Source of the DNA: a virus
IMG/VR virus record: IMGVR_UViG_3300009684_001816
Coordinates: 1 to 41,568 of that record
Reading direction: 5' to 3' (one strand)
DNA: 41,568 nucleotides
Of the stretch, positions 9,390-40,630 are shown one piece after another. Position 1 is the first letter of the stretch; every line of letters begins with the position of its first letter. A program made the position numbers and the translations under genes. The notes below the pieces were generated by a model. It was not told the DNA's origin, did not search any database, and worked only from the letters and a program-made list of their open reading frames with translations.

Positions 9390-11312
9390 TTACTTCCCTA
9401 ATTTTTTCATTGCTAGTCTACGAATTTCCATATCCGGATGAGTTAATGCTATTTGATGATGAGTGGCATTTGCCTCTGGATGATTCAATAATACTCTGGC
9501 CAATTGTGTTGATGGGTTATTACCCATAGCAGCGGTAATATCTTTAGCCTTATAATGTTCTAATGGAACATAAGCGCCTCTGAAACCTATTTTGCTCAAT
9601 CTACCTTCAGAATTGATATCATTTTTATTTTTATTAAGAGCATATTCGATATGCTCTGCTGTTGCATTAGGATGTACCATAGCTTCTCTACGAACTTCTG
9701 CATTTTTATCATTTAATGCTTTATAGATATTGTCAGAAGAAGCGTTTTCATTCATAATAGCAGCTAATCTAACGTCTTTATTTTTATCGTCTAATGCTTT
9801 ATGTATATTATCAGAAGAGGCATTTCTATTCGCAACTGCGTTATATCGAACGTCTGAATTTTTATCATCTAATGCATTATGAATTTGTTCTGTCGTAACT
9901 TTACGATGTTGTATGGCGGTAGCTCTAGTAACATAATCTGTATCTTGCAACGCTTCTTTAATATTATCTTCCGAAACATTACGATGTTGCAGAGCAATAT
10001 GTTTAAGTTTTGAATTTTTTGTTTTTAATATATAACTGATATGATCCGAATTTAAATTCGGATGTTCAGCTGCTGCCTGTGCCACAATTAAATCACCGTA
10101 ATCACCTTTAGTTTTATCTTTTAATAATCTACTAATTTGATCTGAAGTTAAATTAGGATTTTTAGCCACAGCCAATTTAGCTTGTGGATTTGGATGATCC
10201 ACAATAAAATTAACTTGCTCTGCAGATGCATTACGATGTTGTATTGCGGCTGTGACAACGCCACCATCATCATCTTTTAAAGCTGTGGCAATATGTTCTT
10301 GATTCGCATTAGCATGTGTAATAGCAGCCAATCTGACCTTTCTATCTTTATCTTTAAGACCTCTTGATATATGATTTGCGGTAACACCCTCTTGATTTGG
10401 ATCAAAAGCTTTTGCTCTAGTTATTGAATTTTTAGAATTTAACAATGGGTCAGGTGATGATGCGATACTACTTCTTTTATCATCATCATATAATTTTGGA
10501 TTTTTATTGTATACAGTATTTGGGTCTGGAGGAAAATTAGTTGCAGCCCATTTTCTAACTGTATCTCCAAATATATTATCCGAAGTACCATATATTTTTT
10601 CTTCGGGGCTTAAAATAGTTGATTTTGTTTTATCTTCAGGTTCGAATGGTTTAAGAGCAATTCTTGCTATTGGATTTTTAGCCTCTGGATCATCAGCATG
10701 AGCAAGGTATGCAACATGAGTTCCATGCTGAACATCAGCTTTAAGATAATGACTAAATTGACCAGCATTATCCAAAGTATCAAAGCCATCATTACCGTTT
10801 CCTACTCTACCTCTTGGATCCAAAGCCATGCATGATCTCCAACCTTGATTTGTTGACATACCAGCAACATCATGTGGATGACGTGAAATAACTACATGCA
10901 AACCACCGCTACCAACTCTAGATGCGCTTCTGGCAGGATCGTTTTGATATGTTTTCATAAGATTTGGAGATGCACCAGTTTTCTGAAGTACACCACCAAT
11001 TTTTAAAGATCTATTTGGGTATTTCGGATCCTGTACAAGTCCTGCTTTATAATCAGATATCTTATATCCATTATTTTCAAGATGTTGTTGAACATCTGGG
11101 TGTGGAACTGCTGTATCAGCTTCGCCACCGCCCAATGGTATTGAAATTCTATCTTGTCCTGGGGGAATTACATGACTTGATATTTCTTGTGCACGATTTG
11201 TTTTTGTCCATTTATCAACAGCAGCTTTTTGTGCATCATTCAATTCTTCTGTTATGTCGCCATAACTTGATGGGATATAATTTATGATACAGAAAGTATT
11301 GAATGATAGCAT
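9390..11312 (-). CDS. HEAT/LRV-repeat protein with conserved phage SRHP...GWxSCM domain
   Basis: Residues about 140-240 contain ISRHPHDVAGMSTNQGWRSCM and GTHVAYLAHADDPE...PIARIALKPF, a block I have seen in other large phage proteins with unknown function. From about residue 290 to the end there are roughly a dozen degenerate units of about 25 residues, of the type V-R-x-A-A-I-x-H-x-N-A-x-x-E-H-I-x-x-A-L-x-D, typical of HEAT or leucine-rich-variant solenoids that bind proteins. The N-terminus is SFNTF-like with an ITE site at residues 20-22. It is the first gene of the late operon, with a late-like box 25 bases upstream. Confidence 0.75.
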   Translation of the reverse strand: MLSFNTFCIINYIPSSYGDITEELNDAQKAAVDKWTKTNRAQEISSHVIPPGQDRISIPLGGGEADTAVPHPDVQQHLENNGYKISDYKAGLVQDPKYPNRSLKIGGVLQKTGASPNLMKTYQNDPARSASRVGSGGLHVVISRHPHDVAGMSTNQGWRSCMALDPRGRVGNGNDGFDTLDNAGQFSHYLKADVQHGTHVAYLAHADDPEAKNPIARIALKPFEPEDKTKSTILSPEEKIYGTSDNIFGDTVRKWAATNFPPDPNTVYNKNPKLYDDDKRSSIASSPDPLLNSKNSITRAKAFDPNQEGVTANHISRGLKDKDRKVRLAAITHANANQEHIATALKDDDGGVVTAAIQHRNASAEQVNFIVDHPNPQAKLAVAKNPNLTSDQISRLLKDKTKGDYGDLIVAQAAAEHPNLNSDHISYILKTKNSKLKHIALQHRNVSEDNIKEALQDTDYVTRATAIQHRKVTTEQIHNALDDKNSDVRYNAVANRNASSDNIHKALDDKNKDVRLAAIMNENASSDNIYKALNDKNAEVRREAMVHPNATAEHIEYALNKNKNDINSEGRLSKIGFRGAYVPLEHYKAKDITAAMGNNPSTQLARVLLNHPEANATHHQIALTHPDMEIRRLAMKKLGK

Positions 11313-23792: not shown

Positions 23793-24254
23793 ATGAAACG
23801 TGGTGAAATGCTCGGGAAAATGCTTCTGATCGCAACGAACGCCCATGCTGGACAGTTTGATCGTGGCGGCGCTCCGTATATTCTCCATCCTCTTAAGGTT
23901 ATGCACTACCTCAAGAGCGAAGACGAAGAGCTTCAGTGCATCGCTCTCGGTCACGACGTTGTTGAGGACACTGACGTTACTTACGCTGAACTTCGTGAAG
24001 CTGGTATCAGTGATCGTGTAATCAATGGCATTGCTGCTCTCACAAAGCAGAAAGGCGAGACATACTTTGAGTATCAGTCGAAAGTATTCGCCAATACTGA
24101 TGCCATGAAGGTTAAATTGTGCGATCTGCGTCATAATACTGATATCCGTAGGTTGAAAGGTGTTACCGAGAAAGATATCGAGCGTATTGCCAAGTATCAG
24201 CGTTTCTATATGGAGATTCAGCTGGTCCTCAAAAAAGCTGAAAAAAGATGTTGA
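23793..24254 (+). CDS. SpoT/MESH1-type HD hydrolase
   Basis: The 153-residue protein matches the stand-alone HD domain of (p)ppGpp 3'-pyrophosphohydrolases. His18 lies in NAHAGQFDRGGAPYILHPL, His54-Asp55 in LGHDVVEDT, with Glu58/Asp59 next, and the distal Asp in KLCDLRHNTDI. There is no synthetase domain. Such enzymes remove the 3'-diphosphate of ppGpp and would blunt the host stringent response; some act on other nucleotides. Its TGA stop lies inside the -35 box of the next promoter. Confidence 0.88.
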   Translation: MKRGEMLGKMLLIATNAHAGQFDRGGAPYILHPLKVMHYLKSEDEELQCIALGHDVVEDTDVTYAELREAGISDRVINGIAALTKQKGETYFEYQSKVFANTDAMKVKLCDLRHNTDIRRLKGVTEKDIERIAKYQRFYMEIQLVLKKAEKRC

Positions 24255-38170: not shown

Positions 38171-38424
38171 TGTATATGATTAAGATTACCCAAGAAGTTA
38201 AAGAAGAGATGGTTCTTTCCACAATTAAAGATGATTATACTTTGATTTGTAAAGATATCGCTTCATTGAAAAATCGAACTGATCTTCCACCGCATCTTCA
38301 TGAAGATCTTATCCAAGATTGTGTTCTTAAAAAAGCTATGGAAATTCTTCTTAAGTATTACATGCCTGTTGCTGAAGCTGAAGATTATATCAAGAAAACA
38401 CTTGACGAATGTAAACTTTTGTAG
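38170..38424 (+). CDS. Small helical protein (84 aa), unknown
   Basis: Helical, with the central segment DLPPHLHEDLIQDCVLKKAMEILLKYYMP. It overlaps the 140-aa gene by one base. The promoter of the tmRNA lies inside its last codons. No family recognised. Confidence 0.68.
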   Translation: MYMIKITQEVKEEMVLSTIKDDYTLICKDIASLKNRTDLPPHLHEDLIQDCVLKKAMEILLKYYMPVAEAEDYIKKTLDECKLL

Positions 38425-38435
38425 TATAATAAATA
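38402..38435 (+). promoter_or_regulatory. tmRNA promoter, early type with overlapping late-like box
   Basis: TTGACG (38402-38407), 17 bases, TATAAT (38425-38430). AATAAATA at 38428-38435 overlaps it and matches 7 of 8 positions of the late consensus, so the RNA may be made both early and late. Confidence 0.78.
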
Positions 38436-38436
38436 C

Positions 38437-38708
38437 TATGCTAAGGTTGTTGAGACGTAAGGAATAGGTCAGTAAGACTCGGGGGCGGTACCCGACGCCT
38501 CCACCATATGTGCTAGAGATAGTTCACTCTACAGTCTGTGAAGTCAGACCACATATGATGGGGGCGAAATAGGCTCGATTATTGATAGTAAAGGTACGAG
38601 TAGACCAAGGCTGATATAAATGCAAACGATAACTTTGCACAGGAATTCGCTCTAGCAGCGTAATCACCTTGGGTATGGGTTCCACCTAGAAACAGAACGG
38701 ACCTATTA
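38437..38708 (+). ncRNA. ssrA: Circularly permuted two-piece tmRNA
   Basis: The acceptor half (to 38506) ends in a T-stem TCGGG/CCCGA, then CGCCTCC and ACCA. A 53-base spacer follows, closed by CATATGTG/CACATATG (38505-38512 with 38550-38557). The coding half starts at 38560 with GGGGGCG, which pairs with CGCCTCC. The third pair is G:U, the alanine identity element. GGCTCGA follows, as in tmRNA 5' domains. The tag frame is 38622-38663: ANDNFAQEFALAA-stop. AATAGGTC (38463-38470) pairs with GACCTATT (38700-38707), joining the two halves. With host SmpB and alanyl-tRNA synthetase it would rescue stalled ribosomes and tag proteins. Confidence 0.93.
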
Positions 38709-38748: not shown

Positions 38749-38952
38749 ATGAACCCGTATGAAATGCGTTTTAACTATTTCCATGCTGCCCGTGATTTGC
38801 TTATCGGTGAGTATCAGGCTAATTTTGCAGAAATTCAGTATTGTGAAGATAAAGAAGAAAAGAATAAACGATTTTCTTCCTTAAAGTATCCTAGTCGGCA
38901 AGATATCTTTGCTCTTGCCGAACAGATCAAAGACTTTACAGATAAGAAGTAA
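38749..38952 (+). CDS. Small conserved T4-like protein (67 aa)
   Basis: MNPYEMRFNYFHAARDLLIGEYQANF...YPSRQDIFALAEQIKDF matches a small helical protein found in many T4-like phages of marine bacteria, opening MNPY-(x)2-R and ending with A-x-x-(I/L)-x-x-F. The function is unknown. A GTGCA/TGCAC hairpin lies at 38716-38728 in its leader. AGGAG precedes the start. Confidence 0.82.
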   Translation: MNPYEMRFNYFHAARDLLIGEYQANFAEIQYCEDKEEKNKRFSSLKYPSRQDIFALAEQIKDFTDKK

Positions 38953-39175: not shown

Positions 39176-39252
39176 GGTTCCTTAGTTCAGCTGGATAGAA
39201 CAACGGATTTCTACTCCGTATGTCGGGGGTTCGAATCCCTCAGGGACCGCCA
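39176..39252 (+). tRNA. tRNA-Arg (anticodon TCT)
   Basis: Acceptor GGTTCCT/AGGGACC with one U:G pair, discriminator G, encoded CCA. The anticodon arm is ACGGA-TT-TCT-AC-TCCGT and the T arm contains GGTTCGAATCC. It reads AGA and AGG. Confidence 0.96.
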
Positions 39253-39519: not shown

Positions 39520-39747
39520 GTGGAAACAGTTTTGAAGAATAATACATTTGTTTCTGACATCGAAAAACTTTGTCGAACCAAAAACATTGAGTATATCGAC
39601 GCTGTTGTTATGTGGTGCGATAAGAATAAGCTAGAAGTTGAAACTGCTGCATACTGGATTCGCAAAGATCCGGCAATGAGAGCTAAAATTCAAGCCGAAG
39701 CAGAAAATCTTAATGTTCTTAAACGTGGTGCACGCTTGCCACTGTAG
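39520..39747 (+). CDS. 33: Late transcription co-activator, T4 gp33
   Basis: The 75-residue protein has a DAVVMWCDKNKLEVETAAYWI helix region and ends with LNVLKRGARLPL, the C-terminal motif by which gp33 contacts the gp45 sliding clamp. gp33 bridges host RNA polymerase to the clamp and activates late promoters. It is shorter than T4 gp33 (112 aa). The GTG start lies 5 bases after GAGG. The order 33 - 59 - 32 is as in T4. Confidence 0.88.
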   Translation: METVLKNNTFVSDIEKLCRTKNIEYIDAVVMWCDKNKLEVETAAYWIRKDPAMRAKIQAEAENLNVLKRGARLPL

Positions 39748-39755
39748 GAGTTGTG

Positions 39756-40052
39756 ATGGCTACATATACAACCGAGATCGATGTAGATCTTAGTGATTTC
39801 GACGAATTGGAATTGAAAGATGAACTTGAGTCTCGTGGCTACTCAGTAAGTTCTGATCCTGAAAGCTTTAAAAAAATTGATGAATTGAGTGATGACGAAC
39901 TAGTTGATGCACTTCAGGCTCGTGGCTATGTTATCTACTATAAGAAAACAGATATTCCATTTCAAATTTATCAGTCATATCTACTTGATACACCAGAGCA
40001 GTTTAAGAAACAGCTTGAACAAATTTTTATCGAGAACGGGTTGAAACCTTGA
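39756..40052 (+). CDS. Small protein with duplicated DELxxELxxRGY motif (98 aa)
   Basis: ELKDELESRGYSVSSD and ELVDALQARGYVIYYKK are two copies of one helix-turn motif. A C-terminal helix (PEQFKKQLEQIFIENGL) follows. Similar short L-x-x-x-L-x-x-R-G-Y units occur in other phage proteins. It lies between 33 and 59 and overlaps 59 by one base. GTG 39753 is an alternative start. Function unknown. Confidence 0.75.
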   Translation: MATYTTEIDVDLSDFDELELKDELESRGYSVSSDPESFKKIDELSDDELVDALQARGYVIYYKKTDIPFQIYQSYLLDTPEQFKKQLEQIFIENGLKP

Positions 40053-40630
40053 TGTCAGCGCTCGAATGTTATCAACAGTACCTTGCTATCAAGCAGCATT
40101 TCTCGAAACCGAACTATGATTATTTCAAATACAATGGCAAAGTTAAAGTTAATGCTGCCACATTTGATGCACGTAAAGATAAGCTTTTCTTTCAGAAACT
40201 CGCTAAACATCCAGATGTTACCAATTTTCTAGTAGCAAACTTATCCGAGAATGATAAAGCTTGGATTAAAGAGTTGGCATATAGTGAATCTGCCGAGAAA
40301 ACATATAAGGCTTGGATCAAGCGTCAACAGTCTCTAACATATATTTTTCAGAACGATCTGGAAAAATTAGATCGAGTTTTAAAAAACAATTTCACATGCA
40401 AATCAGGAGAACATCCTCTTCTTCTTAAAAAGTTTCTTGGTAAAGAAATTAGCCTTGAGACACTTTGCATCCTTCTTGAGTTTTCCGGCGCCAAGGCAAT
40501 GTGGGACACTAAGATGGAATACGATTTGGTTTGGGAATCATTCAAAACCAAAATTGAGAAGTACTTACCATTCATCAAATATGAAAAAGACAAGTTGGTA
40601 AAGATAGCCCTTGACTATTTCGAAGAATAG
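40052..40630 (+). CDS. 59: Helicase loader, T4 gp59
   Basis: The 192-residue, mostly helical protein has the gp59 opening CYQQYLAIKQHFSKPNYDYFKYNGKVKV and the C-terminal EFSGAKAMWDTKMEYDLVWESFKTKIEKYLPFIKY. T4 gp59 (217 aa) binds forks and gp32-coated DNA and loads gp41. Gene position beside 32 is as in T4. The ATG overlaps the previous stop (TGATG), so translation is coupled. Confidence 0.93.
   Translation: MSALECYQQYLAIKQHFSKPNYDYFKYNGKVKVNAATFDARKDKLFFQKLAKHPDVTNFLVANLSENDKAWIKELAYSESAEKTYKAWIKRQQSLTYIFQNDLEKLDRVLKNNFTCKSGEHPLLLKKFLGKEISLETLCILLEFSGAKAMWDTKMEYDLVWESFKTKIEKYLPFIKYEKDKLVKIALDYFEE

Follow-up and report, generated by a model that had tools for sequence, protein, structure and literature searches.

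A permuted tmRNA gene of reduced architecture upstream of gp33 in a T4-like phage fragment

One-piece tmRNAs are known from mycobacteriophages (Bxz1 group) and from Bacillus phage G. A two-piece tmRNA was described in 2022 in the T4-like methylophage Melnitz, where its gene lies directly upstream of that of the late-transcription coactivator, and 53 two-piece forms were counted among 133 distinct phage tmRNA structures (PMC9004378). The 2025 tmRNA database contains 79 unique tmRNA sequences from phages (PMC11915505). The occurrence of two-piece forms in T4-like (marine) phages is thus already in the literature (PMC9004378), and the general finding is not new. Although phage tmRNAs have been catalogued, no established role for them was found in the literature.

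Identity of the gene and of its carrier

The DNA considered here, called the window below, is a 41,568-bp IMG/VR virus record, a fragment of a T4-like phage. Its region 38437-38708 (+) encodes a circularly permuted, alphaproteobacterial-type (two-piece) tmRNA, as found with Infernal and Rfam, with ARAGORN and by direct reading of the sequence. The Rfam alpha-tmRNA model RF01849 (alpha_tmRNA), a check proposed in the preliminary description of this DNA, matched positions 38398-38707 (+) in Infernal with 114.8 bits (E 9e-31; curated cut-off 50 bits), RF04321 (tmRNA_permuted) matched 38445-38663 with 98.4 bits (E 4e-18; curated cut-off 47 bits), and ARAGORN independently called a permuted tmRNA with the tag ANDNFAQEFALAA. 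Chance or artefact as the source of the signal was ruled out by ARAGORN and the two Rfam models, and the feature is real, far beyond chance. The parts of the locus are as follows.

38402..38430 (+): sigma70-like promoter TTGACG-N17-TATAAT, 11/12 consensus matches, overlapping the 3' end of the upstream ORF
38437..38506 (+): acceptor (3' tRNA-like) piece with encoded CCA (ARAGORN, Rfam, sequence; 5' limit approximate)
38507..38559 (+): intervening spacer of 53 nt, presumably excised, with the closing stem CATATGTG/CACATATG (sequence)
38560..38708 (+): coding piece with the GGGGGCG acceptor strand, D-loop analogue, P2 strands, resume region, tag and 3' pseudoknot (Rfam, sequence; 3' limit approximate)
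38622..38663 (+): tag frame ANDNFAQEFALAA and stop (tag 38622-38660, stop 38661-38663; ARAGORN)
38669..38706 (+): 3' pseudoknot (prediction), with the stems UUGGGU/ACCUAG and AUGGGUUC/GGACCUAU surrounding the conserved AAACAGAA (by eye; limits approximate)
38749..38952 (+): small ORF (ATG 38749) behind an AGGAG-type ribosome site, with weakly similar sequences at some of the other viral tmRNA loci (sequence, similarity)
39176..39252 (+): tRNA-Arg (TCT) (ARAGORN, Rfam)
39520..39747 (+): gp33 late-transcription coactivator, the conserved downstream neighbour (PF16805, E 3e-15; synteny)
40052..40630 (+): gp59 helicase loader (PF08993, E 3e-15)

The acceptor piece, whose encoded CCA ends at 38506, stands upstream of the coding piece, whose G1 is at 38560, with a spacer of the removable type between them. 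The acceptor helix GGGGGCG/CGCCTCC (CGCCUCC in the RNA) has 7 pairs, including the alanine identity pair G3-U70, and the T-arm of 5 pairs carries a loop of the alphaproteobacterial type, GGCGGTA. The 8-bp stem CATATGTG/CACATATG that encloses the spacer uses the last two bases of CCA. The tag frame has the resume codon GCA (38622) and a hydrophobic Ala-Ala end. The permuted acceptor halves, G3:U70, the 8-bp spacer stem and the tag frame had all been named in the preliminary description; each was re-read in the sequence, and that description is correct.

The T4-like setting proposed there is likewise borne out by a T4-type DNA polymerase, UvsX, a gp41-like helicase, gp33 and gp59, all encoded in the window; bacterial contamination was ruled out, since the T4-like replication and transcription genes share the contig. 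The nearest annotated phages by DNA polymerase are cyanophages, at about 50% identity, and DNA similarity to isolated phages is confined to short matches. Two other genes of the window were noted. A possible phage (p)ppGpp hydrolase is encoded at 23793-24254 (+): this small, stand-alone HD phosphohydrolase is similar to the hydrolase portion of RelA/SpoT, with TIGR00691 matching residues 12-96 (E 1.5e-14) at a score far short of the full-length cut-off. Positions 9393-11312 (-) encode a 640-aa protein with many degenerate repeats (HKALDDKNKDVRLAAI...), for which no PHROGs family was found.

Pairing of the two pieces and the missing pseudoknot 1

For comparison, viral contigs were scanned with one acceptor-plus-coding pattern, which gave at least 119 stretches, most of them with an ARAGORN tmRNA call; after the removal of duplicates, 77 viral copies among the matches listed were analysed. 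In six related phage sequences of the window's short form, 95.7% of the helix cells in the acceptor helix, T-arm and three P2 parts pair, and 12 of the 27 helix pairs have changed on both sides. These six give a covariation score of 0.516; shuffles give 0.244, and slid partners no more than 0.086. Next to GAC, helix P2 has a G-C pair in 74/77 viral copies among the matches listed and an A-U pair in 3/77, the window included; P2 was hardly used in selecting the copies, being weighed only in the choice between alternative readings of a locus. G3-U70 is invariant across the viral copies among the matches listed, a count that is not independent evidence, because the search pattern fixed this pair for most of them. 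The minimum-energy two-piece fold of the window RNA did not contain P2 as drawn. Helix P2 between the two pieces is supported on the basis of covariation.

The distance from G1 to the resume codon is 62 nt in the window and 80-91 nt in 64 alphaproteobacterial copies. Viral copies among the matches listed fall into two length sets, 55 at 75-114 nt and 22, including the window, at 46-67 nt. Because this distance is only 62 nt, with about 15 nt left between the end of helix P2 and the resume codon, the usual pseudoknot 1 has no space in the window tmRNA; a simple search found no interleaved helices in that interval. Among the long viral copies, covariation supports pseudoknot 1 (0.455 vs 0.193, eight sequences). 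Single-sequence pseudoknot prediction had little power against shuffles, so the claim that the pseudoknot is missing is based on length and covariation. A segment after the tag is also missing in comparison with the bacterial model RF01849. The 3' pseudoknot is kept, and its stems, read by eye, differ in sequence yet still pair in the viral copies L088, L101, L095, L205 and L206.

The short set (46-67 nt) does not form one group on the tree, so pseudoknot 1 may have been lost more than once. Engineered E. coli tmRNA from which pseudoknot 1 was removed is reported to retain tagging (Wower 2009, as cited in PMC4236655; PMC3968760), and the loss is therefore compatible with function; natural forms without it are evolution's own test of this laboratory result. 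In this architecture the window tmRNA departs from every bacterial copy compared and also from that of Melnitz. The lack of pseudoknot 1 looks like the new part, with an earlier description possible: a literature search on natural phage tmRNAs without pseudoknot 1, which did not cover Sharkady and Williams 2004 (two-piece tmRNAs), found no paper.

Eight very short permuted tmRNAs (L010, L028, L040, L051, L052, L093, L111 and L118), in which G1 and the resume codon are 46-47 nt apart, carry the tag ADENLALAA or AEETLALAA; on the DNA examined, none of them showed a match to the T4-like proteins of the window.

The gp33 slot and the promoter

In the window the gene order is tmRNA, small ORF, tRNA-Arg, gp33, small ORF, gp59; in Melnitz it is tmRNA, gp33, gp59, and in Mosig the tmRNA adjoins gp33. 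HTVC008M (KC465899.1) has a tmRNA at 145161-145370 (90.6 bits), missing from its GenBank annotation, with gp33 downstream at 146004. Among the matches listed, gp33 lies downstream in 52/77 viral loci, always on the same strand; this is 52/68 of the evaluable loci, which have either a gp33 match or 2.5 kb or more of DNA on the downstream side. The distance is at most 3 kb in 50 of these 52 linked loci among the matches listed. Of 12 named phages whose records were tested, 8 do not carry a permuted tmRNA (cyanophages, a marine virus, Caulobacter phage Cr30 and Sinorhizobium phage phiM12), and the gene is thus common in this lineage and not universal among T4-like phages.

Two further tmRNAs deserve mention. 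That of Mosig (L279/MT647606.1; 111467-111805, minus strand) has a tag readable as GEDNFALAA, with the glycine resume codon GGC replacing the usual alanine. The 469-kb jumbo Sinorhizobium phage Phosso (L290/PV764938.1) has an unannotated permuted tmRNA at 349596-350198 (-), with an unusually long spacer of about 410 nt and the tag ANDNVSTKVALAA.

The promoter ascribed to the gene in the preliminary description is plausible. A promoter with at least 10/12 matches occurs in the corresponding region of 58/75 viral copies among the matches listed, where 3.2 are expected. In the same listed matches TATAAATA, the T4 late box, is present in 46/75 viral copies, against a background of about 0.02 per 90 bp, and the merged form TTGACA-N16-18-TATAAATA in 34/75. 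Since TATAAATA is the late box, many of the phage genes may be transcribed early as well as late in infection. The window is excepted: a late box was ruled out there, the sequence being TATAATAAATA and not TATAAATA.

Explanations and related systems

In our opinion, the locus is very probably an ssrA gene inherited within the T4-like lineage and fixed upstream of gp33, whose two-piece tmRNA would be run by host factors and would sustain ribosome rescue. Its own sigma70-type promoter would drive transcription; host tRNA-processing enzymes would trim the ends and excise the 53-nt spacer, and the acceptor helix together with helix P2 would hold the pieces together. Host AlaRS would charge the molecule through G3-U70, and it would enter a stalled ribosome with host SmpB and EF-Tu. 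Translation would resume at GCA (38622), the product would gain ANDNFAQEFALAA, and ClpXP-type proteases of the host would receive it. The likely benefit is that ribosome recycling could be sustained while mRNA is degraded during infection. A search for SmpB found no such gene in the window, nor in the complete records of the tmRNA-bearing phages Melnitz, Mosig, HTVC008M and Phosso; as the window record is a fragment of 41.6 kb, this phage may still encode SmpB outside it. Given this result, the window tmRNA probably works with host SmpB.

The lack of SmpB in the tmRNA-bearing phages examined would also suit an RNA that acts mainly by sequestering host SmpB and EF-Tu, reducing or redirecting the host's trans-translation rather than adding capacity. 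An RNA merely competing for SmpB would have the same tRNA-like part, and the phage tmRNA of DS6A, which has the TLD only, is described as resembling a strong tmRNA inhibitor, perhaps through SmpB titration. However, the coding part has been maintained, with an in-frame tag that ends in LAA in 73/77 viral copies among the matches listed, a conserved resume region and a 3' pseudoknot; a pure decoy needs none of these, and we consider this explanation unlikely. Another proposal, made for Melnitz (PMC9004378), is that host or unfinished proteins are tagged for amino-acid recycling, a purpose other than ribosome rescue. It could draw on the higher share of LAA ends among distinct tags, 47/51 in phages (among the matches listed) and 28/54 in bacteria (Fisher p 4e-6), a comparison that ignores kinship and uses a viral set obtained with one DNA pattern. 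This share is in line with strong ClpX-type signals. The preliminary description had raised a redirection of proteolysis by the tag as a possibility; the window tag looks conventional, because an LAA end is the usual signal of ClpX type. Tagging, however, follows stalled ribosomes and does not by itself select host proteins, which makes the proposal improbable as well.

It was also considered whether a host gene had been captured recently and is carried by chance, with no phage-specific selection. The alphaproteobacterial type of the tmRNA and the similarity of its tag to ANDNFAEEFALAA of Caulobacter sp. CCUG 60055, the nearest variant (E for Q), could be read in this way. Yet this tag is an unreliable host marker, because the window tmRNA itself groups with viral tmRNAs: its nearest relatives are the viral copies L088, at 82% identity, and L035. 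On a tree of 140 short sequences, most of whose branches are weak, viral and sampled bacterial copies are largely separate, the labels needing two changes against a shuffled mean of 46.6; keeping the bacteria together on the tree was not rejected (p-AU 0.95). The exact tag ANDNFAQEFALAA was not found in a collection of genomes from 84,980 species. The gp33 slot conserved across divergent phages, the compensatory helix changes and the conserved promoter also speak against recent capture, which is highly improbable. The preliminary description had read the locus as a permuted tmRNA with the tag ANDNFAQEFALAA and a good promoter in a T4-like phage, and this holds; its suggestion of capture from a host, understood as a recent event, finds no support in view of the conserved slot, the nearly separated tree and the tag that no scanned species genome contains. 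It did not mention that pseudoknot 1 is missing, that the gene is linked to gp33 or that the promoter is conserved. The best-fitting history would be an old acquisition, passed down since then within phages.

The conserved locus and promoter, together with the kept pairing of the two pieces, show selection, and the role of phage tmRNA becomes a question that can be tested in a phage. A wider reading, which we regard as possible rather than probable, is that T4-like phages have an old, vertically inherited rescue gene before gp33, often under a merged host-type and T4-late-like promoter, and that one branch, including the window, uses a natural tmRNA without pseudoknot 1, host SmpB and strong protease tags, so that the phage would control rescue and tagging in infection.

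Among known systems, the window shares with Melnitz (MZ577097), Mosig (MT647606) and HTVC008M (KC465899) an alpha-type permuted tmRNA in a T4-like phage, placed on the same strand upstream of gp33, with no SmpB found. In Melnitz the distance between G1 and the resume codon is 82 nt, within the length class that has a supported pseudoknot 1, whereas in the window it is 62 nt; Melnitz was published with a glutamine riboswitch (PMC9004378), and none was found in the window by Rfam search. Mycobacteriophages of the Bxz1 group and Bacillus phage G (PMC4131195) also carry tmRNA, with other hosts. Alphaproteobacterial RF01849 tmRNAs, such as that of Caulobacter, resemble the window in gene order, G3-U70, encoded CCA, T-loop, resume region, a tag of the type ANDN... 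and the AACAGAA loop of the 3' pseudoknot. Against this model the window scores 114.8 bits and the bacterial matches listed about 195-313; unlike them, the window tmRNA is without pseudoknot 1 and a segment after the tag, and its promoter stands nearer to the acceptor piece.
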